From: Acidovorax sp. CCYZU-2555
GTDB lineage: Bacteria; Pseudomonadota; Gammaproteobacteria; Burkholderiales; Burkholderiaceae_C
Assembly: GCF_018413525.1 (NCBI RefSeq)
Contig: NZ_JAHCDD010000011.1
Location: 1-64,000, forward strand
Length of the DNA stretch: 64,000 nt
Direction of reading: 5' to 3'
In this document: positions 45,787 through 64,000 of the stretch, piece after piece
Layout of the letters: each line of letters begins with the position of its first letter
Numbering within the stretch: position 1 is the stretch's first letter
Position numbers and translations under genes: made by a program
Notes under the pieces: generated by a model
Told to the model about the DNA's origin: nothing
Seen by the model: only the letters and a program-made list of their open reading frames with translations
Database searches by the model: none

Positions 45787-45800
45787 GCGCCCAAACGAAA

Positions 45801-45829
45801 AACGCCGGCATCTTTGCGCTGCCGGCGTT
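45801..45829. terminator. Bidirectional hairpin terminator
   Basis: A perfect 10-bp stem AACGCCGGCA / TGCCGGCGTT with a nine-base loop lies between the convergent oxidase and Bug receptor genes. A-rich sequence (ACGAAAAA) on its left flank gives the minus-strand transcript a U run; the plus-strand tail is GTTCATTTC. Confidence 0.8.
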
Positions 45830-45850
45830 GTTCATTTCAGCGCCGAAATT

Positions 45851-46825: not shown

Positions 46826-46898
46826 GGATTGTCTCCTTTGGTTTATTTCTTGTTTCTATGCGCAGGCCGCTGTGGAGCCGACGTCAACTACCGATAGA

Positions 46899-47176: not shown

Positions 47177-47208
47177 CCGCTCAGGCCGAACGGAAATCCA
47201 TCGCCGCT

Positions 47209-48890: not shown

Positions 48891-49013
48891 GTTGTCTCGT
48901 TGCGGGATCTCGGACGGATCCTGATGAGAACGCATTCTGCGCAGCGGCATTCATTCGGTCTATTGAATAATGGTGATTGACTCATTTCTTTTGGTAATTG
49001 AAGAAAGCGCCCC

Positions 49014-49922
49014 ATGGACCTGCATCTGCGCGATCTGCGCTATTTCGAAGCCGCGGCCGAAATGGGCCATTTCGGCCAGGCCGCCGAGCATCTCGCGCGC
49101 AGCCAGCCCGCGCTGACCAAATGCATTCAGCGCCTCGAAGAGGCGTTCGGCAGCCCGCTGTTCGAGCGCGAAGGCCGCGGCATACGGCTCACGCCCGTGG
49201 GCGAGATGCTGCTGGGCCGGGCACGCATGCTGCGCAATACCGCCGAGGAAGTGGTGCGCCAGGTGCAGGAGTTCGCCCAGGGCCTGGCCGGCCATGTGCG
49301 CATAGGCAGCGGGCCGGTCGCGGCCGATCACCTGCTGCCCGAAGTCTGCAGCCTGGCGCTGGCGGGCGGCCACCAGACGACGATCAGCATCGTCGTCGGC
49401 CCGAGCTGGGAGCTGCGCGAGCAACTGCGCGAAGGCAAGATCGATCTGCTGATCGGTCTGACCATAGACGGCGACCCGACCACCATCTCCTACCCCATCG
49501 TCGAAGACGTGGTGGTCGTGGCCGCGAGCCGCAGCCACCCGGTGTTCGCCACGCCCAAGATCACCATGCAGACGCTGCTGCGCTACCCCTGGGCCCTGCC
49601 CGCGCCCGTCATTCCCAGCCGCCAGTGGCTCGACATGGCGTTCGCCAACAAGGGCCTGGCGCCGCCCAGCGTGCAGATCGAGGCCAGCTCCATCGCGCTG
49701 CTGCCGCGCATGATCGCGCGCACCCACCTGCTGAGCTTTGTGTCGCGGCATACGCTCGCGCTGCCGGGCGGCGACCACCTCGAGGAAGTGCGGCTCGAAG
49801 CCACGACGCTGCGGCGCAAGCTGGGCGTGACCGTGCGCCGCGCGGGCGAATTGTCGCCCGCGGCGCAACGCATCGTCGAGCTGCTGCGCACGCAGGGGCC
49901 GGCGCTGGCGAGCGTCTACTGA
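49014..49922 (+). CDS. LysR-family transcriptional regulator
   Basis: The 302-residue protein begins MDLHLRDLRYFEAAAEMGHFGQAAEHLARSQPALTKCIQRLEEAFGSPLFEREGRGIRLTPVGE, a LysR helix-turn-helix, then an effector domain with WELREQLREGKIDLLIGL. It is divergent from the hydroxyacid dehydrogenase/RraA genes; the 123-bp gap is AT-rich (CTATTGAATAATGG) and probably holds both promoters. It converges on the IclR gene. Confidence 0.9.
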   Translation: MDLHLRDLRYFEAAAEMGHFGQAAEHLARSQPALTKCIQRLEEAFGSPLFEREGRGIRLTPVGEMLLGRARMLRNTAEEVVRQVQEFAQGLAGHVRIGSGPVAADHLLPEVCSLALAGGHQTTISIVVGPSWELREQLREGKIDLLIGLTIDGDPTTISYPIVEDVVVVAASRSHPVFATPKITMQTLLRYPWALPAPVIPSRQWLDMAFANKGLAPPSVQIEASSIALLPRMIARTHLLSFVSRHTLALPGGDHLEEVRLEATTLRRKLGVTVRRAGELSPAAQRIVELLRTQGPALASVY

Positions 49923-49938
49923 AGCGGCGGCGCCAGTC

Positions 49939-50814
49939 TCAGGGCCGGCCGGCGAGCGCGTCGACTTCGGTGCGCATGTCATGCACGAGCCGCTGCACGG
50001 CCGCGCCGTCGAGCAGGCTGCTCATGCCCACGGCGACGACGGTATGCGTGAGCTGCTGGCGCGCGTTGAATACCGGCAGCGCGACCACGGACAGTCCGCG
50101 CACGAAATGGTCGCGGTCCAGCGCCCAGCCCTGGCGCTTGGCGAGTTCGACTTCATTGCGCCAGATGGTGAAGCCGGGCGCGTCGTCCCAGGCAATCGCC
50201 GCGTAGATCTTCTTGAGTTGCGCCGCGGTCGCGCCCAGTTCAGCCGCGATCAGCCGGCCCGTGGCGCTGACCAGGCTGGAGAACTGGCTGCCGACATCGG
50301 TGTGCAGGCGAAACGGCTGATTCGACTTCGACAGCGCCAGCACCACCACGCTCTGGTGCTGCGTGACTTCGACGCCCATGGCCGTGACGCCATGGCGGGC
50401 CGCGAGCCGGTCCAGGCCCGGCTGCACGCGCTGGGCGAAACTGCCGCCTTCGAGCACGCTGCGCGCCAGGCTGATCATGCCGCCGGCCAGCGTATAGCGC
50501 TTGGTCGCGCTGTCCACCTGCACCAGGTCTTCGCTGACCAGCACGCGCAGGATATGCAGGCAGGTGCTGGGCACCAGGCCCAGTTGGTCGGCGATCGCCT
50601 TCACGCCCAGCCCCGGCTTGCTCTCGCCCAAGAGCCGCAAGATGGCGATCGATCGGCTCACGGCCGGCACGGGCCGCACGCGCTGGGCCTTGGGTTGACT
50701 CGGTTCACTGGCCATGCTGCTGGTTTTCTGGTGGCGACGACGCACGGTCGGGATGTCCAGCTTACCCGAAGCCGCACGCCCCAAAGGCGTCCAGGCCATG
50801 TCGAGCGAAATCAT
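49939..50814 (-). CDS. IclR-family transcriptional regulator
   Basis: The 291-residue protein has the IclR helix-turn-helix at about residues 48-105 (VPAVSRSIAILRLLGESKPGLGVKAIADQLGLVPSTCLHILRVLVSEDLVQVD) and an effector domain. The ATG at 50814 is chosen because AAAGGAG lies eight bases upstream and it overlaps the thioesterase stop (ATGA); this gives a 33-residue N-terminal extension compared with the start at 50715 (MASEPSQP), which lacks a clear ribosome site. It is the last gene of the ligase/dehydratase/CoA-transferase operon, which it may autoregulate. Confidence 0.85.
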   Translation of the reverse strand: MISLDMAWTPLGRAASGKLDIPTVRRRHQKTSSMASEPSQPKAQRVRPVPAVSRSIAILRLLGESKPGLGVKAIADQLGLVPSTCLHILRVLVSEDLVQVDSATKRYTLAGGMISLARSVLEGGSFAQRVQPGLDRLAARHGVTAMGVEVTQHQSVVVLALSKSNQPFRLHTDVGSQFSSLVSATGRLIAAELGATAAQLKKIYAAIAWDDAPGFTIWRNEVELAKRQGWALDRDHFVRGLSVVALPVFNARQQLTHTVVAVGMSSLLDGAAVQRLVHDMRTEVDALAGRP

Positions 50815-51224
50815 GGCGTACTCCTTTGCGCCACGGCCTTCATGATGGCCTGGGCCTGCAGCACCGGCGCGCCGTCGACGCTGGCCAGGCCCTGCAGAAA
50901 CAACAGGCTGCGCGTGCGCCGCGTGATGCGGGCGCGCACTTCGACAAAAGCGCCCTCGCCCACGCCGGCCAGGAAATGGCTGTCGAGCTGCAGCGTCAGG
51001 CAGGGCTGGCGCCCCGCGGCCTGCCAGGCGATGGTGCTCAGCGCATGGTCCATCAGCGTGAGCAAGGCACCGCCATGCAGCATGCGCGCCGGGTTCAGGT
51101 GCTGCGCCTGCACCTGCAGGCCATAGGCCCAGTCATCGCCCTCGCGCCGGCTCCACAGCGGGCCGGCCAGGCCCATGAAGCCGGGGAGTTCGTGGGGTTT
51201 CCAGCCGTGGGCCTGCAGTTCCAT
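50811..51224 (-). CDS. PaaI-type hotdog-fold acyl-CoA thioesterase
   Basis: The 137-residue protein has the hotdog fold with the signature LNPARMLHGGALLTLMDHALSTIAW (HGG...D catalytic segment) followed by TLQLDSHFLAGVGEGAFVEVRARI. It hydrolyses aromatic or short acyl-CoA thioesters and would release trapped CoA in this pathway. It is ten bases after the Bug receptor gene and overlaps the IclR start. Confidence 0.88.
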   Translation of the reverse strand: MELQAHGWKPHELPGFMGLAGPLWSRREGDDWAYGLQVQAQHLNPARMLHGGALLTLMDHALSTIAWQAAGRQPCLTLQLDSHFLAGVGEGAFVEVRARITRRTRSLLFLQGLASVDGAPVLQAQAIMKAVAQRSTP

Positions 51225-51234
51225 GGCGTGGTCC

Positions 51235-52194
51235 TCAATCCGCCTTCAACCCCGCCGTGGAAATCACCCCCTGCCACTTCTGGCGCTCGGTCTTGCCAAA
51301 GGCCTGCAGCCATTCGGGCGTGCCGCCCGCGGGCTCGAAGCCCAGTTCCAGCAGGCGCTGGCGGGTTTCGGGGCGTGCCAGCGCCTTGTTGAACGCGGCG
51401 TTGAGCGTGTGGATGATCTGCGCCGGCGTGCCCTTGGGGGCGTAGAGCGCATTCCAGGCGATCACGTCGAAGTCGGGGTAGCCCTGCTCGGAGATCGCCG
51501 CCACGCCGGGCACCAGCGCGCTGGGCTGCCTGGACGTCACGGCGATGGCGCGCAGCTTGCCCGACTGCAGGTGCGGGCGCAGGCTGGTGGGCGTGTCGAC
51601 AATGGCCGTGAGCTGGCCGCCGATCAGATCGGTGATCGCAATGCTCGCGCCCTTGTAAGGCACGCCGAACAGCGCAACGGCCGAACGCTCCTTGAGCAGC
51701 TCGACCACAAGGCGCGCGCTGGTGCTGGGCAAGGCGATGTCGGCGCTGCGCGGCGCGGACTTGACCGCGTCGACCAGCTGCCGGGCCGAAGTCAGCGGCG
51801 AAGTGCTCGCCACGGCCAGCACCATGGGAAAGGTGCCGACCATGACCACGGGCTCGAAGTCGCTGCCTGCGTTGAAAGGAATCTTGGTGTACAGAAACTC
51901 GTTGAGCACATGGGTGGCGTTGGTGCCCATGGTCAGCGTATAGCCGTCGGGATGGGCCTTGGCCGTGGCCTCGGTGCCCACGTTGCCGCCAGCGCCGGGG
52001 CGGTTGTCGATGATGATGGGCTGGCCCAGATCGCGTGCGATCTGGTCGGCGAGATAACGCGTGGCGATGTCCGTTCCCTGGCCTGCGGGGTAGGCCACGA
52101 TGATCTTGATGGGTTTGGCCGGATAGGTCTGCGCGTGCAGCGCGCTGCCGGCCAGGCCCATGACGGCGGCCAGGCCCAATGCGATGAGTTTCAT
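51235..52194 (-). CDS. Bug-family TTT substrate-binding receptor
   Basis: The 319-residue protein has a Sec signal (LIALGLAAVMGLAGSALHAQ), KIIVAYPAGQGTDIATRYLADQ, IIDNRPGAGGNVGTEATAK, FGVPYKGASIAITDLIGGQLTAI and GKLRAIAVTSRQPSALV. AYPAGQGTD departs from the usual PFPAGGxTD, which may mark a distinct ligand pocket. It is the fifth such receptor in the window and, like the others, has no TctAB partner here. It lies between a CoA-transferase and a thioesterase. Confidence 0.9.
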   Translation of the reverse strand: MKLIALGLAAVMGLAGSALHAQTYPAKPIKIIVAYPAGQGTDIATRYLADQIARDLGQPIIIDNRPGAGGNVGTEATAKAHPDGYTLTMGTNATHVLNEFLYTKIPFNAGSDFEPVVMVGTFPMVLAVASTSPLTSARQLVDAVKSAPRSADIALPSTSARLVVELLKERSAVALFGVPYKGASIAITDLIGGQLTAIVDTPTSLRPHLQSGKLRAIAVTSRQPSALVPGVAAISEQGYPDFDVIAWNALYAPKGTPAQIIHTLNAAFNKALARPETRQRLLELGFEPAGGTPEWLQAFGKTERQKWQGVISTAGLKAD

Positions 52195-52269
52195 GTCTGT
52201 CTCCTTGTGATGCCAACGGTTTTTTCCTGCGCGGGGCCAGGCCCCGTGCAGCGGCTTTTCTTCTGTGGA

Positions 52270-53511
52270 TCAGTGTTGGGTGATGGCATGGCCCTCCTGC
52301 ATTTTGCGGGCCGACGCCTGCGCTGGCGCCTGTGCCAAACCCGCAGTGACCTGCCCTTGCGCTTGCGCCTGTGCCTGCCAGCTGCGCGCCAGGATCGCCG
52401 CGCGGTCCTGGTCCAGCCGCGGCGGCGCCGCGCCCGGCACCGCGGGCGTGCCCATGAGCCGCACCGGTGAACGTATGCCCGTGTAGTCGCCGCGCCGCAC
52501 CAGCATCTGCCGGTGCTGGGTATGCGGATGATCGAGCGCGGCGGCCACGCTGTTGACGGCCGAGGCCGGCACGCCGACGGCCATCAGCGCATCGGCCCAG
52601 ACCTGCGCCGGCTGCGTGGCGATCGCCGCCTCGATGGCCGCGTACAGCGCGTCGCGCTGGCCCAGGCGCTGGGCGTTGTTGGCGAAGCGCGGGTCGGCGG
52701 CCAGCGCGGGCGCGCCTATCGCTGCGCAGAAGCGCCCGAATTGCGCGTCGTTGAGAATGCCGATGAACAGCTCGCCGTCGGCCGCGCGGAACTTGTCGTA
52801 GGGCACGATGTTCGGGTGGGCGCTGCCCAAGGGCGCGGGCACTTCGCCCGAACAAAGCCAGTTCGCGCCATGCGGCAGCAGCAGGCTGATCGCGGTGTCG
52901 TAGAGTGTGGCCTCGACGCGCTGGCCCAGGCCGTCACGCTCGCGCGCCTGCAGCGCCATCAGAATGCCGGTCAGCGCGACATAGCCCGTGAGGTGGTCGA
53001 CCACGGGAATGCCGACCTTGGTCGCGCCGCTGTCGGCGCTGCCGTTGATGCTCATGATGCCGCAGGCCGCCTGCAGCACGGCGTCGTAGCCCGGCAGTCC
53101 GCCCAGCGGCCCGTCGGCGCCGAAGCCGCTGATGCTGCACAGCACCAGCCGTGGGTAGCGCGCGGCCAGAACGTCTTCGTAGCCCAGGCCCCAGCGCTCC
53201 AGCGTGCCGGGAACGAAGTTCTCGACCAGCACATCGGCGCCGGCCAGCAAGCCATGCAGCACCTGCTGGCCGTCGGGCGTCGACAGATCGAGGCTGATCG
53301 ACTGCTTGCCGCGGTTGAGCGCGGAAAAATATGCGGCCTGCTGGCTGGCCGTGTACGGCGGCCCCAACCGGCGCGTCTCGTCGCCCGCGGGCGGCTCGAC
53401 CTTGGTCACTTCGGCCCCATGGTCGGCGAGGATTTGCGTGCACAGGGGCCCGGCCAGGACCCGGGTCAGGTCTACGACCTTCAGCCCCTGCAAGGCGCCT
53501 GCGCGGCTCAT
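52270..53511 (-). CDS. CaiB/BaiF (family III) acyl-CoA transferase
   Basis: The 413-residue protein opens GLKVVDLTRVLAGPLCTQILADHGAEVTKVEPP, then ALNRGKQSISLDLSTPDGQQ and VVDHLTGYVALTGILMALQ with the expected catalytic aspartate. A 40-residue Ala/Gln-rich C-terminal tail (QAQAQAQGQVTAGLAQAPAQ) is unusual and likely disordered. It is three bases after the MaoC-type dehydratase. An itaconate-, mesaconate- or benzylsuccinate-like transfer is possible from the CoA-transferase plus MaoC pairing, but this is inference. Confidence 0.88.
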   Translation of the reverse strand: MSRAGALQGLKVVDLTRVLAGPLCTQILADHGAEVTKVEPPAGDETRRLGPPYTASQQAAYFSALNRGKQSISLDLSTPDGQQVLHGLLAGADVLVENFVPGTLERWGLGYEDVLAARYPRLVLCSISGFGADGPLGGLPGYDAVLQAACGIMSINGSADSGATKVGIPVVDHLTGYVALTGILMALQARERDGLGQRVEATLYDTAISLLLPHGANWLCSGEVPAPLGSAHPNIVPYDKFRAADGELFIGILNDAQFGRFCAAIGAPALAADPRFANNAQRLGQRDALYAAIEAAIATQPAQVWADALMAVGVPASAVNSVAAALDHPHTQHRQMLVRRGDYTGIRSPVRLMGTPAVPGAAPPRLDQDRAAILARSWQAQAQAQGQVTAGLAQAPAQASARKMQEGHAITQH

Positions 53512-53514
53512 GGC

Positions 53515-54657
53515 TCAGGCTCCGCGGCTGGGCAGGACCACGACACCGCTACCGACCACGGACAACTCGTTGTCCTGGTTGTGCGCGATCTGCTCGATCT
53601 CGACCATGTGCTGGCCGTTCTCGACGAACTTGCGCACCACCTTGCCCGTGATGAACACCATGTCGCCTTCGGGATTGTGGCGGCGGATCTTGCAGCTGGC
53701 CTTGTGCAGGAAGCCGGTGTCGCCCATCCAGTTGGTCAGGTGGTGGGTCAGCCACGAAGTACGCTCAGGACCGTAGTCATAGGCACCGGGCGCGCCGACT
53801 TCGAGCGCGAAGTCTTCTTCCCAATGCACACGCTCTGGAACATCGGGAATGCCGAAACGGTTCTTGATGCCCACGCCCGGATGCGCATCGATGAGCTTCC
53901 AGGCCAGCTTGTTGGCGCGGATGTAGAGGCCGCCCCAGCCCTGGGCATAGGCGATGAAGCCGGTCACGGTCATCGGACCCTTGAACATCGTCGGCAGCGC
54001 CTCGCCTTCCTTCACATCTTCCCAGTAGCGCGGCACGGCGCCGCGCACTTCTTCCTTGCGGTAGAGGTCGAAGGCCGCGGCCAGTTCCTCGTCGGTATAG
54101 CTGCGTTGGCCGCGTTCGCGCGCCGCATCGTACTTGGTGCCGACTTCACGCGCATGGTCGCGCTCGGTGCGAAAGCACCAGCTGTCGGCCTCGGCCACCT
54201 TGTCGCCGTTCTGATTGAAAAAGTCGACGTGGTAGATCTGCTGCACCGCCCGGCCCGCGAAACGCGTCTGGTGCTCGACCAGGTCCTTGAGATAGGCCTC
54301 GGTGTGGATTTCATCGTTGCGGTGCACGGGCTTGTGCCAGGTCCAGTCGGCGCCCGACCACATCGCGTGCACGCCCGGCAGTCCGCCGACATAGCCCGAG
54401 ACGATGCGGCTGGTGGAGAACAGGAAACTGGGCAGTGCCACGATGCCGCCGTAGTGCGACTTGGCCGCGTAGTCGGGATCGCACCACAGCGGGTTGTCGT
54501 CGCCAATGCCATGGGCGTAATGGCGGATGTTGTCGCGCGTGGCCTCATGGCACCACGGCTCGACGGTGTGACCGATCTTGACGCCTATGCGCTGGCGCAA
54601 TTCGTCGAGTCCGCTTTCGGTGATCTTGGGGAAATTGCGCTGGGCTTTCATGTCCAT
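53515..54657 (-). CDS. MaoC-family / FAS1-like acyl dehydratase
   Basis: The 380-residue protein has two hotdog halves. The first (about residues 1-170) contains RDNIRHYAHGIGDDNPLWCDPDYAAKS, the (R)-specific hydratase motif with Asp and His, and the second (about 200-370) begins with VKEGEALPTMFKGPMTVTGFIAYAQG. It probably hydrates an enoyl-CoA to the 3-hydroxyacyl-CoA, or a mesaconyl-type thioester. ATG at 54657 follows AGGAG. Open codons further upstream come from the REP array. It lies 52 bp after the ligase gene. Confidence 0.85.
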   Translation of the reverse strand: MDMKAQRNFPKITESGLDELRQRIGVKIGHTVEPWCHEATRDNIRHYAHGIGDDNPLWCDPDYAAKSHYGGIVALPSFLFSTSRIVSGYVGGLPGVHAMWSGADWTWHKPVHRNDEIHTEAYLKDLVEHQTRFAGRAVQQIYHVDFFNQNGDKVAEADSWCFRTERDHAREVGTKYDAARERGQRSYTDEELAAAFDLYRKEEVRGAVPRYWEDVKEGEALPTMFKGPMTVTGFIAYAQGWGGLYIRANKLAWKLIDAHPGVGIKNRFGIPDVPERVHWEEDFALEVGAPGAYDYGPERTSWLTHHLTNWMGDTGFLHKASCKIRRHNPEGDMVFITGKVVRKFVENGQHMVEIEQIAHNQDNELSVVGSGVVVLPSRGA

Positions 54658-54709
54658 GGTGACGACTCCTGGTTGAGAAACGGGAAAGGGAAAACGGGGG
54701 TGGGCGGGG

Positions 54710-56485
54710 TCAGCGGCCTGGGGTGCATTGCCCTTCGACAAGCTCAGGGCGAACGGGGGGCCCTTCGACAAGCTCAGGGCGAACGGAGGGCCCTTCGACA
54801 AGCTCAGGGCGAACGGGGGGCGGCTCAGAGTGAACGGGGGGCGGCTCGGGGCGAACGGACGAGAGCCCGGGCGCCGAACCGTTCGTCCTGAGCCTGTCGA
54901 AGGATGAACGGCCTTGCCCTCCAGCCAGTGCCAGCTCGCGCTCGCGCAGCACCTTGCGATGCACCTTGCCGGCCGGCGTCTTGGGCAGCTCGTCGACCAG
55001 GGCCACATGGCGCGGGTACTCGTGCTGGCTCAGCTTGGTCTTGACCAGCTCCTGGATTTCGCGCGTGAAGGCATCGATGTCGCACGCCGGGCGCGTGCTG
55101 ACGATGAAGGCCTTGACGACCTGGCCGCGCAGCGCGTCGGGCACGCCTATGACCGCGGCTTCGAGCGCGTCGGGGTGCATCAGGATCACGTTCTCGATCT
55201 CGACGGCGCTCATGGTCCAGCCCGCCGAGATGATCACGTCGTCGGCGCGGCCGCCGTGATAGAAGTAGCCGTCGGCGTCGATGCGGCCCAGGTCCTTGGT
55301 GGGAATCCACTCGCCGCGGCGCAGCACCATCAGCTGGCCCGTGACACCGGGCGCGCAGGGCTTGCCGTCGTCGCCCTGCACCTGCACTTCGGTGCCGGGC
55401 ACGGCCTTGCCCAGCGCGCCTTTCTTGACGGGAAAGTCGGGCGCACCCGGGTAGCTGGCCAGCACCACGCCGATCTCGGTCGTGCCGTACATGCTGCAGA
55501 CTTCGAGGCCGAACGTGGCGCGCACGAAGTCTGCGGTGTCGTCATCGATGGGCTCGCCCGTGAACGACAGCTTCTCGAGCGCGAAGCGGTAGTCGCCGGC
55601 CTTGCCGCAGTTCTTCATCATGCGGTAGTGCGTGGCCGCGGCCGACATGTTGGTGAAGCCGTGTTCGGCCAGGCCCTGCAGCAGGCGCTCGGCGTTGAAG
55701 CGCCCGCTGTATGCGCCCACCGTGAGGCCCAGCGCCAGCGGTGCGAGCGTGCCATGCCACAGCCCATGGCCCCAGGCCGGCGACGACGGGCAGAAGTAGC
55801 GCTCGCCGGGGCGAATGCCCGTGCCGTAGAGCGCCGCGACCATCAGCGTGACCAGCGCCTTGTGCGAATGCTTGACGGCTTCGGGCAGTTCGCGCGTCGT
55901 GCCCGAGGTGTACTGGAACACCGCCAGGTCCGATGCCTTGGATTGGGTCTGATAAGCCGCGGGGAACTGTGCAAGCGTTTCGGCGAAAGCGGCATCGAAC
56001 ACCTGCACCGGCGGGTGGCCGGGAAAGCGCGCGGCGTCTTCCTTTTCGGCGTTGGTGATCAGCAGCGCGGGCTGGCAGTCCTGCACGCGCAGCCGAATGC
56101 CGTCGGGGCCGAACAGCGTGAACAGCGGCACGGCGATCGCGCCGCGCTTGATCACGCCGAACATCGCGGTATAGAAAGCGCGCGAGGGCTCGAGCATGAT
56201 CGCCACCCGGTCGCCGGCCTGCACGCCCCGGGCTTCCAGCCAGTGTGCGAGGCGCGATGAATCTTCCGACAGCTGGGCAAAGCCTATGCGCTCTTCGCCG
56301 CCCGCGGCCTGGACCACGATCAACGCGTCGCGGCCCGAAGCCGCATGGCGGTCCACGCACTCGTGGGCGATGTTCAGCGACTCGCGGTTTCCGTCGAACA
56401 GATCCCAGAGCCGTTCGGGGGAAAACTGCAGCTGCGCATCGGCGTAGCTCTGGTAGTCGGTCAGTGATTTCATGGCGGCATCCAA
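54710..56485 (-). CDS. Acyl-CoA ligase (AMP-forming) with REP-derived C-terminal tail
   Basis: The 591-residue protein has ANL-superfamily motifs: DLAVFQYTSGTTRELPEAVKHSHKALV (phosphate loop; RELPEA replaces the usual GxPKG), EVCSMYGTTEIGVVLASYPG, KDLGRIDADGYFYHGGRADDVIISAGWTMSAVEIENVI, and the catalytic lysine in PKTPAGKVHRKVLRE. The core ends near residue 524. The remaining ~67 residues are translated REP DNA, including FDRLRTNG and three PELVEG decapeptides, and end in QCTPGR. It activates an organic acid to its CoA ester and heads the operon. Confidence 0.9.
   Translation of the reverse strand: MDAAMKSLTDYQSYADAQLQFSPERLWDLFDGNRESLNIAHECVDRHAASGRDALIVVQAAGGEERIGFAQLSEDSSRLAHWLEARGVQAGDRVAIMLEPSRAFYTAMFGVIKRGAIAVPLFTLFGPDGIRLRVQDCQPALLITNAEKEDAARFPGHPPVQVFDAAFAETLAQFPAAYQTQSKASDLAVFQYTSGTTRELPEAVKHSHKALVTLMVAALYGTGIRPGERYFCPSSPAWGHGLWHGTLAPLALGLTVGAYSGRFNAERLLQGLAEHGFTNMSAAATHYRMMKNCGKAGDYRFALEKLSFTGEPIDDDTADFVRATFGLEVCSMYGTTEIGVVLASYPGAPDFPVKKGALGKAVPGTEVQVQGDDGKPCAPGVTGQLMVLRRGEWIPTKDLGRIDADGYFYHGGRADDVIISAGWTMSAVEIENVILMHPDALEAAVIGVPDALRGQVVKAFIVSTRPACDIDAFTREIQELVKTKLSQHEYPRHVALVDELPKTPAGKVHRKVLRERELALAGGQGRSSFDRLRTNGSAPGLSSVRPEPPPVHSEPPPVRPELVEGPSVRPELVEGPPVRPELVEGQCTPGR
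54731..54912. repeat. REP array, copy e, inside the ligase 3' end
   Basis: Three tandem 30-bp units (54731-54760, 54761-54790, 54791-54820) each read CCCTTCGACAAGCTCAGGGC then GAACGG and GGG/AGGG. Two degenerate units of about 21 bp follow (CGGCTCAGAGTGAACGG, CGGCTCGGGGCGAACGG), then a REP module CCGTTCGTCCTGAGCCTG...GGATGAACGG at 54879-54910. Each 30-bp unit keeps the ligase reading frame. No spacers are present, so it is not CRISPR. Confidence 0.9.
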
Positions 56486-56980
56486 CGTCAGTGAGGGGTT
56501 GAATGCAGTTTTCTCCCGAGCGCCACTTTTGTCAAATACGACTTCTATTTGTCTATATACAAATCTTCGCTACGCGAAACTTCGCTATGGGATGACTCAA
56601 TGGATGCAAAAAGGCGCAAAGGAACAGCTTTTACGGCAGATTTTTCGCCCGCGAAATGCAGTGAAATCGGCACGCCAGCTTCAGGCTGCGCTCACATTTC
56701 TTCCAGCGTTTCAGCACGCTGAAAATCGCAGCGATCGCATGGATGCAGGCGTTCGGCGCACGCGCAAAATCGCGCAAAAGCCGGCGTGAAGCCGGGCACG
56801 CAGGGCATGCGATCAAGGGTATGTCCTAGGAATTGCGTGCCGCGGCGCCGGCAGTCCCGGCAAGCGCCCATGTCAACACAAGCCTTACTCCCACAGCACC
56901 CGGCAAATTCATCCTTTACGGTAGGAGGTGCTGGTGTGCCCACACGCCAGATATCCCATTCCAATCCCACGAGGTGTGCA
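56486..56980. other. 495-bp intergenic region with palindrome, no gene recognised
   Basis: An inverted repeat ATTTGTCTATATACAAAT (56547-56564) lies 62 bp upstream of the ligase start, in a local AT-rich patch; ATTTGT/ACAAAT halves flank CTATAT. It could be a GntR- or IclR-type operator over the ligase promoter. A TTCGCTACGCGAAACTTCGC direct/inverted repeat follows. The rest, up to the ferritin-like gene, shows no convincing coding frame or RNA gene. TAGGAGGTG at 56933-56941 is a strong ribosome-site look-alike with no long frame attached. Confidence 0.45.
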
Positions 56981-57526
56981 ATGAACAATAACGAGCAACA
57001 ACCACGTCAGCTGACACTCGACAATGAACGACTCGAAGCGGCAAAGCAGAGCCTGGACCAGGGGGCGGTGACGCCCGAAGCCGAGCAATGGCGCGAAGCC
57101 ATCATCGCGCTGCTCAATGATTCGCTGGCCACCGAAATCGTCTGCGTGCTGCGCTACAAGCGCCACCATTTCACGGCCACGGGGCTCGAGTCGCCGGCGA
57201 TCGCCGACGAGTTCCTGGTACACGCCAACGAGGAACAGGCGCATGCCGACAAGATCGCCAAGCGCATCGTGCAGTTGGGCGGCAAGCCCGATCTGAACCC
57301 CGACACGCTGACCAGCCGCAGTCACGCCGACTACGACGAGCAGGAAGACCTGCACGCCATGATTCGCGCGAATCTGATTGCCGAGCGCGTGGCGATCGAG
57401 GCCTATACGCAGATGATCGAGCTGATCGGCGACAAGGACCACACCACGCGCCGGCTGATCGAGCAGATCCTGGAGCAGGAACAGGAACATGCCGACGAAC
57501 TGTCGGATTGGATGAAGCGCGCCTGA
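56981..57526 (+). CDS. Ferritin-like diiron protein (bacterioferritin-related)
   Basis: The 181-residue four-helix protein has the diiron ligands in order: Glu52 in LATEIVCVLRYKRHHF, E-x-x-H in HANEEQAHADKIAKR, Glu in LIAERVAIEAY and a second E-x-x-H in LEQEQEHADEL. It probably stores or oxidises iron, or protects DNA from peroxide. GAGGTG lies shortly before ATG 56981. It is convergent with the ots operon and separated from it by a GC-rich hairpin. Its link to the trehalose operon may be shared stress induction, which is inference. Confidence 0.85.
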   Translation: MNNNEQQPRQLTLDNERLEAAKQSLDQGAVTPEAEQWREAIIALLNDSLATEIVCVLRYKRHHFTATGLESPAIADEFLVHANEEQAHADKIAKRIVQLGGKPDLNPDTLTSRSHADYDEQEDLHAMIRANLIAERVAIEAYTQMIELIGDKDHTTRRLIEQILEQEQEHADELSDWMKRA

Positions 57527-57536
57527 CGCGCGGCTT

Positions 57537-57569
57537 GCCGCGCAGGGTTGGCCATCGGCCCTGCGCGGC
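57537..57569. terminator. GC-rich hairpin between convergent genes
   Basis: An 11-bp perfect stem GCCGCGCAGGG / CCCTGCGCGGC with an 11-base loop lies 11 bp after the ferritin-like stop and 16 bp after the otsB stop on the other strand. It lacks a clear U run, so it may be a bidirectional weak terminator or RNA stabiliser. Confidence 0.6.
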
Positions 57570-57584
57570 GGCTCCCGCAGACCC

Positions 57585-58295
57585 TCAAAGCTTGCGGATA
57601 CGCACCTGTTGGCGCAGCCATTCGAGCACATTCGCCGGCTGCTCGAACATCCCGTCGGCATGGGCCTGCACCCTGGAGCCGACCGCGAATGCCAGCCCGC
57701 CCAGCGCGCGCGCGGCCTGCATCGCGCTGATATCGCTCAAGTCATCGCCGATGAACACCGGCATCCTGCCCATGAACGGCGCCTGCAGCATCAAATGCCG
57801 CAAGGCCGCGCCTTTGTGCGCATCGGCGGGCACCAGTTCCAGTACTTTCTTGCCTTCGCAAAGACGGTGCGTGACCAGCGCCGCCGCCATCTGCGCGGCC
57901 AGCGTGCGCACCATGGCCTCGGCCGCAGGTGCCTGGCGCCAATGCAGCGCCAGACCACAAGGCTTTTCCTCGACCAGTGCACCAGGCCAAGGCTGCAATG
58001 CATCGCGGCAACGCTGCGCGAGCTGGACCAGGCGCGCATCGGTGGGCGCACACTCCATCAGCTCGGCGCCATGGCTGCCGACCAGCAGGACGCCGGCCCC
58101 GCCCAACAACTGCGACAGATCGCCATACGCGCGCCCGCTGATGCAGGCCAATGCGCCCTGCAGTCGCGGTGACAGCGCGGCCAGTGTGTCGAGCAGCAAA
58201 GGGCTGACCTGCACCGCCGCGGGCGTGGGCGCGATATCGATCAGCGTGCCGTCGAGATCGACAAACAGCGCGATGGCTTCAGCCAAGGCCCGCAC
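57585..58295 (-). CDS. otsB: Trehalose-6-phosphate phosphatase
   Basis: The 236-residue HAD-fold enzyme has FVDLDGTLIDIAPTP with the nucleophile aspartate, ALACISGRAYGDLSQLL, VLLVGSHGAELME, VLELVPADAHKGAALRHL with the lysine, and GDDLSDISAMQAA (family usually GDDxTDExxF, so the second half of the motif is altered). It removes phosphate from trehalose-6-phosphate made by OtsA. The start is GTG at 58295, overlapping the glycosyltransferase gene by 17 bases. It is last in the six-gene operon. Confidence 0.9.
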   Translation of the reverse strand: MRALAEAIALFVDLDGTLIDIAPTPAAVQVSPLLLDTLAALSPRLQGALACISGRAYGDLSQLLGGAGVLLVGSHGAELMECAPTDARLVQLAQRCRDALQPWPGALVEEKPCGLALHWRQAPAAEAMVRTLAAQMAAALVTHRLCEGKKVLELVPADAHKGAALRHLMLQAPFMGRMPVFIGDDLSDISAMQAARALGGLAFAVGSRVQAHADGMFEQPANVLEWLRQQVRIRKL

Positions 58296-58962
58296 CCGCG
58301 CCCGGCTGGGCCACGCTGCGCTCCAGCGTCAGCAGGAAGTCGCCGAAGCCTTCGCGCGCGCGCGGATCGCGGCGCGCGCTGGTCACCACGCAGGGCGCGA
58401 TGCGCCGCGCAATGCGCAGGCCCGCCTGCTCGCAGCGGCGCACCAGGCCCACATCTTCATGCGCCGTGGCCGGCAGAAACCCGCCGGCCTGCAGATACGC
58501 CTGGCGTGACAAGCCCAGGTTCGCACCGTGCACATGCGGATGGCCGTCGCGCGGCACCGTGGCGTGGAAGGCGCGCACCACCTCGGGCGCGTAGTCGCCC
58601 CAGTCGTCGACGCGCACAATGCCGCAGAACACATCGGCGCCGCAATGCCATTGCCCATGCAGCCAATCTTCGGGCACCTGGGTGTCGGCATCGGTGCAGG
58701 CCAGCCAATCGGCGCCCAGCTCCAGCCCGCGCTGCGCACCTGCGCTGCGTGCCTGACCGACGTTGCGCGCGTCGATTTCGATGACGTGGTCCGCATGTGC
58801 GTGCGCGATGCGCGCGGAGCCATCGTCACAGGCATCGAGCACCACCACCAGCGTGGCGCTAACAGCATGCGTCGCAAGATGCCGCATGCTGGCGCGCACC
58901 GACTGCAGACAGGCCAGCAGGCGCTGCTCTTCGTTGTGCGCGGGAATGACGATGGCGATCAC
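58279..58962 (-). CDS. Family 2 glycosyltransferase in ots cluster
   Basis: The 227-residue soluble GT2 has IAIVIPAHNEEQRLLACLQSV, VVVLDACDDGSARIA, the DxD-like metal site in WLACTDADTQVPEDW, GANLGLSRQAYLQAGGF and the general-base region ATAHEDVGLVRRCEQAG. It has no membrane segments, so it would act in the cytoplasm on a soluble or membrane-surface acceptor. It overlaps the NodS-like gene by four bases. The donor sugar cannot be determined; the ots context makes a UDP-glucose-type donor plausible. Confidence 0.85.
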   Translation of the reverse strand: MIAIVIPAHNEEQRLLACLQSVRASMRHLATHAVSATLVVVLDACDDGSARIAHAHADHVIEIDARNVGQARSAGAQRGLELGADWLACTDADTQVPEDWLHGQWHCGADVFCGIVRVDDWGDYAPEVVRAFHATVPRDGHPHVHGANLGLSRQAYLQAGGFLPATAHEDVGLVRRCEQAGLRIARRIAPCVVTSARRDPRAREGFGDFLLTLERSVAQPGAGAGLG

Positions 58963-59546
58963 AGCAGTCCCTCCTTGCGCGCCACGCTGGTGCGGCTGGC
59001 GCTCAACACGTCGATCAACAGATCGTCATCCTGGTAGCCGGCCTGGCCGTGAAAGCCGGTCACTTCGCTGATCAGCACATGCGCGGTTTCGGCGGGCGTG
59101 ATCACCTGCGCGAACGCATGGCGCCAGTGCGCGAGCAGCAGCACGCATTCGGCCGACGCCTGGATACGGATGTTGCGCGCGAGCTGGCTGATCTGTGCCT
59201 CGTTCAGGTAGTAGGCGACATCGCACAGCAGGATGTGATCGAAGCTTTGCGCGGGCCAGTGCTGGGTGATGTCGGCGTGCACGATCTCGACATTTTCCCG
59301 GCCCTGCAGCCGATGGCGCGCGAGTTCTATCGCCTTGGCCGACACATCGACGGCCAGCACGTGGGTGGCGCGCGCCGCGAGCAGCTGCGTGATCATGCCG
59401 GTGGAGCAGCCGATTTCCAGCACCCGGCCGAGCTTTTCATGCGGCAGCAGCGCGGCGATCAGCGCCCGCCGGCGTTTTTCATACCAGTGCGTCGCGTAGC
59501 CCCAGGGGTCGGGCTCCTCATGGGGGGCGTCAAAATCAATGGCCAT
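58959..59546 (-). CDS. SAM-dependent methyltransferase (NodS-like)
   Basis: The 195-residue class I methyltransferase has the AdoMet loop LGRVLEIGCSTGMITQLLAARATHVLAVDVS, ENVEIVHADITQHWPAQSFDHILLCDVAYYL and EISQLARNIRIQ-type helices matching the NodS family, which N-methylates glucosamine residues of Nod factors. The ATG at 59546 overlaps the PIG-L stop by 11 bases; upstream open codons lie in the PIG-L gene. With a deacetylase beside it, N-methylation of a freed amino sugar is a reasonable hypothesis. Confidence 0.85.
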   Translation of the reverse strand: MAIDFDAPHEEPDPWGYATHWYEKRRRALIAALLPHEKLGRVLEIGCSTGMITQLLAARATHVLAVDVSAKAIELARHRLQGRENVEIVHADITQHWPAQSFDHILLCDVAYYLNEAQISQLARNIRIQASAECVLLLAHWRHAFAQVITPAETAHVLISEVTGFHGQAGYQDDDLLIDVLSASRTSVARKEGLL

Positions 59547-60207
59547 GCAGGTAGTACTCGTGGTCGGTGGTGAATTCGGCGAGGAATTCATCGCGGATGA
59601 TGGCGCCGGCGGCCGAGTCATCGCGGCTGAATTGCGTCTGGAACAGCGCGGCCGCCTGCTGCTTCAAGGCGCGCTCTTCGGGCGCGAGCGTGATGACCGC
59701 CACCCCCTCCTGGGCGAAGAACTGCGCGCGGCGCGCGCTGTCGGTCAAGCTCCAGACCGGGTAGAAAATGCTTTGCCCGGCGCCGGCGACCTTGCGCAGG
59801 CCGTGGGCCACCATCTCGTGGTCGGGATGGCCGTCGTGCCACCAGGGCGCAACGCACAGCGCGTCGGCGCGGCAATGGTTTTGCAGCGCGCGCTCGATCA
59901 GCGATTCCTGCTCCATCAGCTGCGAATCGCCCAGACCCCAGAACGTGGGCGGCGGATAGCCGAGCAAAGCCGCCGCCTGCAGCGACTCCTGCTGGCGCGC
60001 GGCGCGCAAGACCATGTCCTCCTCGGCGGGCAAGGCGCCAAAGCAGCGTTCGCCATCGGTGACGATATGCACGTCGACGCGCAGGCCCAGCCGCTGGGCG
60101 CAGCGTATCAGGCCAAAGCAGCCGAAAATCTCGTCGTCGGGATGGGGCGCGAGCACCGTGAGCGCATCAAAACCGCGCAACAGCATTTCAACGGGCACGG
60201 GCGGCAT
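59536..60207 (-). CDS. PIG-L/LmbE-family deacetylase
   Basis: The 223-residue zinc hydrolase has LTVLAPHPDDEIFGCFGLI (AHPDDE metal motif) and the third zinc ligand in WHDGHPDHEMVAHGL, with RQQESLQAAALLGYPPPTFWGLGDS between, as in MshB and BshB. It removes an N-acetyl group from a sugar conjugate. ATG 60207 follows the ACAD-like stop by two bases. It likely generates the free amine for the adjacent methyltransferase. Confidence 0.88.
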   Translation of the reverse strand: MPPVPVEMLLRGFDALTVLAPHPDDEIFGCFGLIRCAQRLGLRVDVHIVTDGERCFGALPAEEDMVLRAARQQESLQAAALLGYPPPTFWGLGDSQLMEQESLIERALQNHCRADALCVAPWWHDGHPDHEMVAHGLRKVAGAGQSIFYPVWSLTDSARRAQFFAQEGVAVITLAPEERALKQQAAALFQTQFSRDDSAAGAIIRDEFLAEFTTDHEYYLHGH

Positions 60208-60209
60208 GG

Positions 60210-61163
60210 CTACAGCTCCCACGCCACGGCCGGCGCCTGCGACAGCCGGCCCAAGTCCGCGTCGTCTTTTTCCGCATGCTGCTGCGTGCACCAGACCGCG
60301 AGATCGGCGCAGCGCTGCGCGTGTTGGGCGTCGGTGCACAGCGGCCCGGGTCCCATGGCGCGCGCGCTGCGCTCGATGATGTCGCTGGCCAGGCCGCGCA
60401 CGAAAGCACGCAGCGCCTGGACTTCCTCGACCCAGGGCTGGCCGGGCGCAGCGTCGATGCGCTGCGCCAATTGATGGAACATCGCCCGGGCCGCGCGCAG
60501 CTGCGTGAACATCGCGCCCAGGTGCGCGGCCGCATGCGGCTGGTCGGCGTGCAGCCGCGTGCGCAGCAGCTGCGCAATCTCGCAGGCCGCGCCATACCAG
60601 CAGGCCGCAATGCCCGCGCCGCCATGCCAGAAACCCGGGCGCTGCAGATAGACCGAACGCGCGCCCAGTGAAATGGCCGGCGTATGCGCGAAATGCACTT
60701 GCGGCGTCTGCACATGGCGCATGCCCAGCGCCTGCCAGCCCTGGCTGTCGATCGCTATGCCCGGCGCGCCCATGTCGACCATGGCAAAACGTGGCCCATG
60801 CTCGGCGTCCTCGCAGGTCAGCAGTGCATGCGTGGTGATCTGCGCGCCCGAGCACCAGGACTTGCTGCCGACCAGCTCCAGGCCTTGCGCAGCGGACTGC
60901 AACTGCAGCCGCGCCCAGGGGTTCTCCGCGGCCCACACGCTCCAGATGCGCGCCTGCGGCGGCGGCTGCACACCGAGGTCCTGCAAGATGGTCAGCGCAT
61001 CCCAATGGGCTTCGGCCAGCTTGCAGGCGGCGAGGTCCTGTGCCGCCAGCGCGGCCAGAGCGCGCCAGCGCTGCAGTGTCGCGCCCGCAGCGGCGCCGGG
61101 CGCGGGCAAGCATGCCGTGGTCTGCAGCGTGCGCAGGAACAGGTCGGTGCTGGCGCCGCTCAT
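60210..61163 (-). CDS. Short acyl-CoA-dehydrogenase-like protein of ots cluster
   Basis: The 317-residue protein is about 60 residues shorter than usual acyl-CoA dehydrogenases and lacks most of the N-terminal helical domain. The beta domain (LELVGSKSWCSGAQITTHALLTCEDAEHGPRFAMVDM) and C-terminal helices (ASDIIERSARAMGPGPLCTDAQHAQRCADLAVWCTQQHAEKD) remain. It begins [13 protein letters not shown] at ATG 61163 and overlaps the otsA stop by four bases. It may be a flavoprotein oxidising a sugar or acyl conjugate; no usual substrate motif is seen. Confidence 0.75.
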   Translation of the reverse strand: MSGASTDLFLRTLQTTACLPAPGAAAGATLQRWRALAALAAQDLAACKLAEAHWDALTILQDLGVQPPPQARIWSVWAAENPWARLQLQSAAQGLELVGSKSWCSGAQITTHALLTCEDAEHGPRFAMVDMGAPGIAIDSQGWQALGMRHVQTPQVHFAHTPAISLGARSVYLQRPGFWHGGAGIAACWYGAACEIAQLLRTRLHADQPHAAAHLGAMFTQLRAARAMFHQLAQRIDAAPGQPWVEEVQALRAFVRGLASDIIERSARAMGPGPLCTDAQHAQRCADLAVWCTQQHAEKDDADLGRLSQAPAVAWEL

Positions 61164-62566
61164 GAACCGGTTCTTTCGAAGACATGGTTCTGGCAGGCGA
61201 ACAGGTCGAACAGAAAGCGTTGATGCCACCACTGGATATTGTGGCTGCGCAGGCGCTTGAGCATCGCGCGGTGGCGCTGTACGCGCTCGAGCAGCGGCAT
61301 CTGCAGCGCGCGCTCCATCGCCTGTGCGACGCTGCGCGTATCGAAAGGATTGACCAGCAGCGCTTCGGTCAGCTCCTGCGCCGCGCCCGCGAACTCCGAC
61401 AGCACCAGCACGCCAGGATCATCGGGGTCCTGCGCGGCGACGTATTCCTTGGCGACCAGGTTCATGCCGTCGCGTACAGGCGTGACAAGGCCTACGCGCG
61501 CCAGCCGGTAAAAGCCCATGAGCTGGTCCTGCGCATAGACCGTGTTGACGTAACGCACCGGTGTGTAGCTGGGCGTGCCGTGGCGGCCGTTGATGCACGA
61601 GGCCTGGGCTTCGAGCGCCGTGCACAGCTGCTGGTAGCTGGCGAGCGCGCTGCGCGTGCGGCTGGCAATCTGCAGCAGCACCGGGGATTGGGCGTCGATG
61701 CCGCCGCCCAGATATTCAGCAAATGCCTGGAACTTGTGCTCCAGCCCCTTGCTGTAGTCGAGCCGGTCCACACCCAGCACCAGCGGGCGCATGCCCAGCG
61801 ACTGCCGCAGCTCCTGCACCGCGGGCCCGGCCCAGACCGCGGGCGCCTGGTCTTCGATGCGCTGGGTGTCGACGGAAATCGGGTAGACGCCGAACTGGGT
61901 GCTGCGCCCGCGGCAATGCAGATGAAAGCACTCTTCGCCGGCCTGGATGATCTGCATTTCGGGCTGCCGACTGCGCTCTGCCTGGAAATAATCCAAGAGA
62001 TTCTTCAAGTCGTTGCGCGTCTGCAGGCCCACGATGTCGAAGGCCAGCAGCGCCGCCAGGAGTTGCGCATGCACGGGAATCGTGCGTATCAGGTCGGGCG
62101 AAGGTACGGGAATATGGTGGAAGTAGCCGACCGCGCCGTCGAAGCCGCTGTCACGCAAGGCCTGCGCGGTCAGCAGCAGGTGGTAGTCATGCACCCAGAC
62201 GAAATCATCTTCCTGGGCGCAGGCCAGCACTTCGTCGGCGAACTTGCGGTTGACCTGTCGGTAAATCGCAAATCCATTTTGCGAATACCGCAGATGATCC
62301 GGCCTCGAATGGCAAACCGGCCATAACACCTCGTTGGAAAAACCCAGATAATATTCGCTATATTCTTCTTCGGTCAGCGAAAAAACACGATATTCAAGAT
62401 TTTCTTGCGCCCCGCATTTTCTCTCGAAACTTGGTGATACTGCGCCGCCCCAGCCGATCCATATGCCTTGCACCGTCTCGAACGTGTCTTTAACCGCAGT
62501 CGCGAGCCCGCCGGAATGGGGGGCTTCATCGTGGCAGACCCGGTTCGAGACAATAATTAATTTCAT
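61160..62566 (-). CDS. otsA: Trehalose-6-phosphate synthase
   Basis: The 468-residue GT20 enzyme has the N-terminal loop IIVSNRV...HSGGLATAV, the substrate residues in [45 protein letters not shown], the UDP-glucose site [20 protein letters not shown], and [35 protein letters not shown]. It makes trehalose-6-phosphate from UDP-glucose and glucose-6-phosphate. It is the first gene of the operon; its first 250 bases and the upstream region are much more AT-rich than the rest. No strong ribosome site is visible before ATG 62566. Confidence 0.95.
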
Positions 62567-62725
62567 TTTTATAACGGATAGTGTTTGACATGTTCAAACC
62601 GAATTTCCATTATTGCCGTGGATGAATTTAAAAATGTAGGAGAGCTCGCCCTGTGATTGTGGGAGCTCAATAAATAGCTTCTTTATTTATAAAATTAAAA
62701 ACCGATAATTTCAGGCAATGAAATG
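62567..62725 (-). promoter_or_regulatory. AT-rich otsA promoter region
   Basis: This 160-bp stretch is AT-rich and contains TTGACA-like and TATAAA-like sequences on the minus strand (TTTTATAAATAAAG), and two GAGCTC sites at 62641-62646 and 62664-62669 that form an inverted repeat around GCCCTGTGATTGTGG. It is the only upstream DNA for the six-gene operon, so its promoter must lie here. The exact -35/-10 pair is not certain. Confidence 0.5.
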
Positions 62726-62763
62726 GCCCGCGCGGCCCGGCCGTCAAATCCGGTCGCGCGGGC
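62726..62763 (-). terminator. Hairpin after TonB-dependent receptor gene
   Basis: A nine-base perfect stem GCCCGCGCG / CGCGCGGGC with a 20-base loop lies ten bases after the receptor stop codon (minus strand). A U-poor tail makes it a weak or factor-assisted terminator. Confidence 0.5.
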
Positions 62764-62772
62764 TGGCGGCGA

Positions 62773-64000
62773 TCAGAAGTAGTAGTTGAAGCTCAGCGTG
62801 GCTTCGCGATCCACGCCGCGGAAGATGCCCGCAAAGTACTTCCTGTCGAACAGATTGTTCACGTTGAGCGCCACGCGGTAGCGCGGCGTCTGGTAGGCCA
62901 CGGCGAGATCGGCCAGCGTCACGCCCGTATTGGTGTTGAGCTGCCCGTTCGACGCCACGCTGTACGGCGAGGCCCCCTTGTAGCGCACACCCGCGGCCAG
63001 CATCAGGCCTTGCACCTGGCGCGGACGGTAGTCGAGCCACAGGCTCGCCATGTGCTTGGACGTCTGCAGCGTCTGGCGGCCGATCTCGGCGGGCCTAGTG
63101 CTTTGCGTGGTACGCGGATCGGTATAGGTGTAGCTCGCCAGCGCGCCGACTTCGCGCGTCACGGCAAAGCGGCCTTCGAGTTCGATGCCGGTGGAGCGCA
63201 CTTCGCCGGTCTGTATGCTGAAGCGCGGGTGGTCCGGGTCCTGCGTGCTGACGTTGGTCTGCGTCAGATCGAACAGCGATGCGGTCAGCAGCGTCGTGCT
63301 GCCCGCGGGCTGGAACTTCACGCCGACTTCGTATTGCTTGCCGCGGCGCGGCTTGAACGTGCTGCCATCGAACTGCAGGCCCGTGACCGGATCGAACGAC
63401 GTCGCGTAGCTCGCATAGGGGGCGAAGCCGTTGTCGAACTGATAGAGCAGCCCGGCGCTGCCCGTGGTCGCGCGGTCATCCATGTGCGGCTGGGTGGTGT
63501 TCAGCTGCGTGGTGTGCACCTTGTCGTGGCGCAGGCTCAGGTTGGCGATCCAGCGCTCCCACTTCAGCTGGTTGAGCGTGTAGATGCCGGTCTGGCGCAG
63601 ATCGCTGGAGCTGTCCTCGAGTTCGGGCGCGGCGATCGCCTGGCCGTAGACGGGTGCCTGCAGATCGAGATGGGGCACATCCCAGCCGAAGCCCAGGCCG
63701 CCGCGTTCGCGGTACTTGACGTGGTCCAGCCCGAATACCAGCCTGTGCTGCAGCGCGCCCCATGCGAGGTCCTTCTGCACGCGGCTGTCGACGGTCAAGG
63801 TGCGCCCCTGGGTCTGCTGCGCCAGATTGGCGCGCGTGACGCTGCGGCCGTCGGCCAGCACGTCCATGGCATAGATGTGGCGGTAATCGATATCGATGGT
63901 CGAATAGCGCAGGTTCTGCGTCAGCAGCCAGCCGCTGTCGGTCTGGTGCGAGAACTCATAGCCCAGCGAGCGCGTGTCGCGGTCGAAGCGGTCGAAGCCC
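62773..64000 (-). CDS. TonB-dependent siderophore receptor (partial, 5' end outside window)
   Basis: About 408 codons of the barrel are visible, including RVQKDLAWGALQHRLVFGLDHVKYRE, GFAPYASYATSFDPVTGLQFDGSTFKPRRGKQYEVGVKF, RYKGASPYSVASNGQLNTNTGVTLADLAVAYQ and the C-terminal NVNNLFDRKYFAGIFRGVDREATLSFNYYF ending in phenylalanine, as in FhuA/FpvA-type receptors. The plug and signal are off the right edge. No FecI/FecR-type genes lie downstream in the visible part. Confidence 0.92.
   Translation of the reverse strand, partial: GFDRFDRDTRSLGYEFSHQTDSGWLLTQNLRYSTIDIDYRHIYAMDVLADGRSVTRANLAQQTQGRTLTVDSRVQKDLAWGALQHRLVFGLDHVKYRERGGLGFGWDVPHLDLQAPVYGQAIAAPELEDSSSDLRQTGIYTLNQLKWERWIANLSLRHDKVHTTQLNTTQPHMDDRATTGSAGLLYQFDNGFAPYASYATSFDPVTGLQFDGSTFKPRRGKQYEVGVKFQPAGSTTLLTASLFDLTQTNVSTQDPDHPRFSIQTGEVRSTGIELEGRFAVTREVGALASYTYTDPRTTQSTRPAEIGRQTLQTSKHMASLWLDYRPRQVQGLMLAAGVRYKGASPYSVASNGQLNTNTGVTLADLAVAYQTPRYRVALNVNNLFDRKYFAGIFRGVDREATLSFNYYF

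Follow-up and report, generated by a model that had tools for sequence, protein, structure and literature searches.

The window, a 64,000-nucleotide stretch of Acidovorax sp. CCYZU-2555 (contig NZ_JAHCDD010000011.1), carries a six-gene operon on its minus strand. The trehalose-synthesis genes otsA and otsB stand first and last, and between them lie genes for a protein resembling acyl-CoA dehydrogenases (ACAD-like), a PIG-L family deacetylase, a NodS-like methyltransferase (MT) and a family 2 glycosyltransferase (GT2) (Table 1). A first-pass annotation had described these genes as an overlapping operon, and the overlaps of 4, 11, 4 and 17 bp and the single 2-bp gap are as it claimed. In Pfam and NCBIfam scans, its otsA, otsB, PIG-L, NodS and GT2 identities all exceeded the Pfam gathering scores, but the ACAD identity remained below the cut-offs. 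OtsA scored 514.6 bits against TIGR02400, under the cut-off of 564.85, and OtsB 126.1 bits against TIGR00685, over the cut-off of 68.05. OtsA and OtsB are encoded together, as in an otsAB operon, with GT20 and trehalose-phosphatase domains in the products of the first and last genes; unlike an operon of trehalose genes only, this one has four other genes in between, an arrangement seen in four records. Searches of the window genome gave one OtsA match and no TreY or TreS match, so they revealed no trehalose-synthesis genes there outside the operon. Of four promoter-like sites between positions 57300 and 62800, three are on the opposite strand and one is within otsA, and no promoter is therefore claimed for the operon.

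Table 1. Genes of the operon in order of transcription, and the gene converging on it
Gene or product	Length (aa)	Position	Strand	Arrangement	Profile match
otsA, trehalose-6-phosphate synthase	468	61160..62566	-	first gene	PF00982, 375.3 bits
ACAD-superfamily flavoprotein-like protein	317	60210..61163	-	4 bp overlap with otsA	Pfam ACAD matches sub-threshold
PIG-L family (LmbE/MshB/BshB-like) deacetylase	223	59536..60207	-	2 bp gap after ACAD-like gene	PF02585, 65.8 bits
NodS-like class I S-adenosylmethionine-dependent MT	195	58959..59546	-	11 bp overlap with PIG-L gene	PF05401, 63.5 bits
GT2 glycosyltransferase	227	58279..58962	-	4 bp overlap with MT gene	PF00535, 45.4 bits
otsB, trehalose-6-phosphate phosphatase	236	57585..58295	-	17 bp overlap with GT2 gene	PF02358, 90.1 bits
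Ferritin-like protein		56786..57526	+	convergent with otsB; frame may begin further in	PF00210, 91.4 bits

Taken by themselves, the inner four genes make up a cassette that is inherited together. Relatives were collected with (i) the ACAD-like protein, which matched 30 of 299 family genomes, and (ii) an ACAD profile, which matched 33 of 398 sampled Pseudomonadota genomes; five genomes were common to both searches, giving 58 in total. The 67 loci compared comprised wide loci for 57 of these genomes (G175 twice; the G601 locus was left out), the Comamonas locus L003 and eight plasmid loci, and were scored with hidden Markov models (HMMs) retrained on these same loci. All four genes occurred within 6 kb in 57 of the 67 loci, and the ACAD, PIG-L and MT genes in 63, which bears out the proposal that the inner four form a unit. 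The order ACAD-PIGL-MT-GT2 was found in 37 loci, GT2-ACAD-PIGL-MT in 14 and other orders in 16. In Cupriavidus basilensis the PIG-L gene lies on the opposite strand, past a catalase gene, and in G529 (L105) the HMM did not detect a GT2. A second PIG-L gene immediately follows the cassette in L103 (L103:11333-12238), and likewise in L105 and L107. A second PIG-L gene of the window genome lies at the end of a contig (G000:C108:117967-118287; L002, L129), and the 15 kb fetched beside it held no other recognized cassette gene.

The cassette occurs in three phyla: Pseudomonadota, Actinomycetota (Kitasatospora) and Deinococcota (D. gobiensis). Annotated plasmid records carry all or most of the four genes in Acinetobacter, Pandoraea, Kitasatospora, Legionella lytica, Sulfitobacter, Sphingobium, Komagataeibacter and two Deinococcus, in a collection that includes some chromosome-size records (3.6-4.1 Mb). 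Nine of the 30 plasmid records matched in one search were read and, from another, 13 of 163, these among the 60 matches listed. Acinetobacter accounted for 19 of the 30; its regions L065, L066 and L071 were read, and in the latter two otsAB is separated from the cassette by a few kb, with a catalase present as well in L071. The Nonomuraea locus L150, which is without annotation, was left out. A contig scan with a single protein as query returned one locus, and ten pattern matches in viral contigs included no relative. A literature search turned up no publication describing the gene set, although one using names other than PIG-L could be missed.

The enclosure of the inner four genes by otsA and otsB is a local form of the Comamonas-like lineage of the window. 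Apart from the window, only three records, all of Comamonas, showed the six-gene order. It occurs, tightly packed, in a Comamonas metagenome-assembled genome (L003), with tblastn identities of 59, 64, 52, 51, 65 and 57% per gene, and on plasmids of Comamonas antarctica (643 kb) and C. endophytica (648 kb), GT2 and otsB being 4 bp apart in the latter. The C. antarctica plasmid covers 61% of window positions 44000-64000 (20 kb) at 83% identity, and both plasmids have a ferritin-like gene at the same place as in the window.

Linkage to other genes was scored as a distance of at most 10 kb from the ACAD-like gene in the 58 genomes, many of which are drafts whose contig ends can hide neighbours. 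OtsA was linked in six genomes (G000, G219, G006, G275, G585, G371) and TreY in nine (G016, G020, G068, G232, G529, G577, G601, G634, G646, the last with TreS too), 15 together, against 0.63 expected for OtsA, TreY and TreS jointly. Sucrose-phosphate synthase was linked in three of the nine genomes having one (G434, G502, G679; 0.05 expected), and any gene for a non-reducing disaccharide in 18 of 58 (about 0.7 expected). A long catalase (Catalase_C) was linked in nine genomes (0.35 expected), and the control gene argG in none (0.27 expected). Linkage to disaccharide and catalase genes exceeds chance. OtsA, TreY or TreS was present somewhere in 56 of the genomes; only G434 and G502 gave no match at the limits used, and in each of them a sucrose-phosphate synthase gene lies less than 7 kb from the cassette. 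Among the 299 family genomes OtsA was found in 125, namely all 30 that have the cassette and 95 of the 269 that do not (Fisher 4e-13, ignoring relatedness and genome size).

These results recast the trehalose link drawn by the first-pass annotation. The cassette does recur with trehalose and stress genes, but otsA and otsB enclose it only in the four records above. With 52 of the 58 genomes lacking OtsA within 10 kb, a tie to otsAB as such comes near to refutation, subject to the neighbours that contig ends may hide. The association is also broader than had been claimed, taking in TreYZ/GlgX genes, sucrose-phosphate synthase and catalase, and not OtsAB alone. In a quick tree of ACAD-like proteins (65 of the 67 loci, two short pieces having been dropped), linkage to OtsAB took seven changes, of which starred branches force at least five, and linkage to TreYZ took three, with at least one forced in this way. 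The OtsAB label was also given to the Legionella locus L070, which has just the phosphatase and GH65, and the TreYZ label to L050 (G148), where the TreY search gave no match; glgE and sucrose loci received neither label.

The neighbourhoods were read with a crude gene finder, which makes the counts of flanking genes approximate, and most of these genes were identified only through a cluster with a scanned representative. In L103, L105 and L107, of a family (f15) taken from its gene sets to be Pseudomonas, malQ, treY and glgX lie ahead of the cassette in the same orientation; family f20 is, on the same grounds, taken to be Acinetobacter kin. A MalQ-TreY fusion and a gene of a TreZ/GlgX cluster lie upstream in L046, L049 and L054 (at least one representative per cluster scanned, the rest assigned by similarity). 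The order otsB-otsA-cassette on one strand was found in G219 and G371, while otsAB converges on the cassette in G006 and G275. On the Legionella lytica plasmid, the order PIGL-MT-GT2-ACAD comes after genes for a trehalose-phosphatase and for a GH65 protein, and L117, L121 and L124 contain a sucrose-phosphate synthase/phosphatase protein. Genes for catalases, PA2169 four-helix proteins, Mn-catalase, CsbD, PRC-barrel and ferritin-like proteins recur near the cassette.

The deacetylase belongs to the PIG-L/LmbE family, its PF02585 score comparing with a cut-off of 28.2 bits; the motifs APHPDDE and DGHxDHE, with metal-site residues H22, D25, H127 and H130, are invariant in 22 sequences, and its relatives in the PDB include TT1542, diacetylchitobiose deacetylase, MshB and GlcNAc-malate deacetylase. 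Among PDB chains that bear a specific name, NodS matches the MT family profile best (3ofj, E 1e-30), in line with the earlier assignment. A chain called only Methyltransferase (4isc), which we take to be a Pseudomonas syringae protein, matched at 4e-69 and is evidently a family member. The NodS model NF041650 was matched by 23 of 25 family members at E<=1e-10; the window protein, at 65.8 bits against a cut-off of 300, is not a NodS equivalog, though homology is strong. The glycosyltransferase, whose PF00535 cut-off is 23.3 bits, belongs to GT2 and has a DxD-type motif; D91-A92-D93 and E169-D170 are invariant in 25 relatives, and 6yv7 is a PDB match (5e-12).

The ACAD-like protein scored 31.3 bits against Acyl-CoA_dh_M (cut-off 33.3) and 18.9 against Acyl-CoA_dh_1 (cut-off 22.4), and its profile found its best PDB matches in the TdsC/DszC monooxygenases (1.3e-13). 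By profile it falls within the ACAD superfamily, with DszC-type enzymes nearest in the PDB, but it differs at the aligned catalytic positions. The family was aligned with seven usable members of the superfamily out of eight from the same genome (L131 is not an ACAD frame). Where ACADs usually have their catalytic Glu, the window has Q295, L003 also has Gln, and the other 20 relatives have Ser or Thr. The active site of DszC includes His92, Ser163 and His391. The first of these positions is occupied by an invariant Lys (K48 in the window) and the last by an invariant Gln (Q294), and only the Ser is kept, as S105 in a WCSGA motif; the cassette sequence K-x-W-C-S-G-A resembles FCSGA of DszC. The protein shares its superfamily with ACADs and with DszC/SfnB-type monooxygenases, but was assigned neither to the ordinary ACADs, given its Pfam scores and the absent Glu, nor to the DszC-type flavin mononucleotide-dependent monooxygenases, given the two replaced His positions. 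A point on the other side is that another ACAD of the same genome (L133) also lacks Glu at the usual position, so that a dehydrogenase may well do without it there; the catalytic base of some ACADs sits elsewhere. As judged from these residues and scores, standard acyl-CoA dehydrogenation is unlikely. An AlphaFold2 model made with the window and L003 sequences only had a mean pLDDT of 42.4. The Acinetobacter relative in L066 gave no Pfam match at 1e-4, and the ACAD-like proteins of two Deinococcus species (L140:4851-7199; L141:3400-5772) are longer at the N terminus by ∼400 residues, a stretch that matched no Pfam family.

With moderate confidence, we favour the view that the inner genes are a widespread, often plasmid-borne cassette for a stress metabolite, with chemistry like that of Nod-factor synthesis, and that in the Comamonas-like lineage it lies nested between otsA and otsB. 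As its family suggests, GT2 would add an N-acetylamino sugar to a small acceptor, which may be the disaccharide itself. The PIG-L enzyme, with its invariant metal-site motifs, would then take off the acetyl group and free the amine, which the NodS-like enzyme would N-methylate; both the structural match to NodS and the existence of GT2/NodS-like/deacetylase fusions are consistent with this step. The ACAD-like protein would carry out a further reaction, probably a redox one but unlikely to be standard acyl-CoA dehydrogenation. The linked genes suggest that the product is made alongside non-reducing disaccharides (trehalose from OtsAB or TreYZ, or sucrose) and oxidative-stress functions, and that it may serve osmotic, desiccation or stationary-phase survival. 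A four-enzyme set found in three phyla and linked to genes that protect against osmotic, desiccation and oxidative stress suggests a protective pathway not described before; if this is true, a new stress metabolite would come to light, the ACAD superfamily would gain a new enzyme activity and NodS a plausible relative.

Several observations weigh against this view. The loci were selected by an ACAD match, which leaves sets of PIG-L, MT and GT2 without ACAD outside the sample. PIG-L was absent near ACAD in four of the 67 loci (L104, L117, L120, L122), and G434, one of the two sucrose-only cases, has only MT and ACAD within 6 kb. No disaccharide gene lies within 10 kb in 40 of the 58 genomes. 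The linkage probabilities ignore relatedness, and of the TreY cases G529, G577, G601 and G634 are from one genus (g170), and G020 and G232 from another (g21). Since catalase is also linked, the linkage may reflect stress islands and not a shared pathway.

That last point opens the way to the strongest rival explanation, a realistic though less than even possibility, in which the cassette is only co-regulated with its neighbours as part of the general stress response and makes a metabolite unrelated to trehalose, such as an amino-sugar antioxidant or a thiol-like small molecule. The long catalases of nine genomes, the recurrent PA2169, CsbD, PRC-barrel, ferritin-like and general-stress genes, the many genomes without a close disaccharide gene, and the mycothiol and bacillithiol deacetylases among the PIG-L relatives all fit such an explanation. 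It accounts less well for the Comamonas form, in which cassette genes overlap otsA and otsB, and for the way in which alternative disaccharide routes recur beside the cassette. Trehalose may be either a substrate of the cassette or only a co-regulated partner.

The repeated exchange of the disaccharide partner (OtsAB, TreYZ, sucrose-phosphate synthase) leads to the prediction of an N-methyl-hexosamine-containing solute that depends on the cassette. A bolder version of the stress-metabolite view, which we consider unlikely as a whole, is that this compound is an N-methyl-amino-sugar compatible solute, new to science and made by many environmental bacteria, that is built directly on trehalose or trehalose 6-phosphate (on sucrose in lineages without trehalose), that the ACAD-fold protein represents a new enzyme class, and that NodS shares ancestry with an older stress pathway. 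Were it true, the Comamonas order otsA-cassette-otsB would follow the chemistry, with trehalose 6-phosphate being made, modified and finally relieved of its phosphate.

It is still less probable that GT2, the deacetylase and the MT decorate a surface glycan, the trehalose linkage being incidental to envelope or exopolysaccharide modification. A trifunctional protein, with GT2, NodS-like and polysaccharide deacetylase parts, is found among polysaccharide-type genes, as is a related protein of Sinorhizobium; further glycosyltransferases flank the alphaproteobacterial cassettes, and in Acinetobacter LUNF3 a major facilitator superfamily (MFS) transporter gene lies between the cassette and otsAB. 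The four cassette genes, however, include no exporter, polymerase or lipid-carrier enzyme, and the Comamonas cassette is nested in genes for a soluble metabolite. Finally, the chance abutment of six unrelated genes has a negligible probability and is refuted by the conservation of the six-gene order in four records and of the cassette in 57 of the 67 loci.

Beyond the operon, positions 50000-57500 of the window share CoA transferase, MaoC-like, acyl-CoA synthetase and ferritin-like genes with the C. antarctica plasmid, the names being those annotated in the matching stretch. A short GC-rich tandem array (54730-54858; 30-bp unit, 3.1 copies) lies at the 3' end of the frame that matches the C. 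antarctica acyl-CoA synthetase gene by position.

Among known systems, the mycothiol and bacillithiol deacetylases MshB and BshB resemble the cassette deacetylase in their PIG-L family, their metal-site motifs and a probable de-N-acetylation of an N-acetylglucosamine (GlcNAc) glycoside. The window protein, in contrast, scored 42.1 bits against the BshB1 cut-off of 182.5 and was below the BshB2 cut-off too, and the six genes of the operon include no MshA or BshA and no cysteine ligase (no search for ligases was made in the rest of these genomes). To our knowledge, NodS-type methylation has no counterpart in these pathways, and the cassette was not assigned to either of them.

The otsAB genes and the Pseudomonas treY/Z operon (glgA-treZ-malQ-treY-x-glgX) are gene sets that the cassette adjoins in some genomes. 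In P. syringae this operon corresponds to PSPTO3125-3130, with glgX as the last gene, and the cassette is not mentioned in the part of the published account consulted (PMC8982409).

The closest parallel is with the Nod-factor genes. The cassette is not a Nod-factor set, as there is no NodA acyltransferase among its genes, its deacetylase is of the PIG-L and not the CE4 (NodB) type, and its GT2, at 227 aa, is not a chitin-synthase-like NodC; the ACAD-like gene and the stress and trehalose context also set it apart. In both, however, a GT2 (nodC), a carbohydrate de-N-acetylase (nodB) and a NodS-type MT (nodS) are combined in one set, and in a Bradyrhizobium nod cluster nodB, nodC and a NodS-like gene lie side by side. 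GT2, NodS-like MT and CE4 polysaccharide deacetylase are fused in single proteins of 970 and 1026 aa (Mesorhizobium, Sulfitobacter), and a Sinorhizobium protein of 1000 aa, scanned for MT only, matched the MT family. These large proteins (970-1026 aa) are encoded on alphaproteobacterial plasmids (L138:5366-8446; L139:4471-7383; L151:1381-4383, the last scanned for MT only). Such proteins are possibly a natural fusion of a Nod-like pathway, although their CE4-type deacetylase, in place of PIG-L, weakens them as a model for the cassette. In a quick MT tree whose root was not inferred, NodS (100, starred) groups with the MTs of the fusion proteins (94), near the alphaproteobacterial cassette MTs (92). 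As the tree is unrooted and the supports of 94 and 92 are not starred, this grouping suggests, at that strength, that NodS shares ancestry with the MTs of the cassette.

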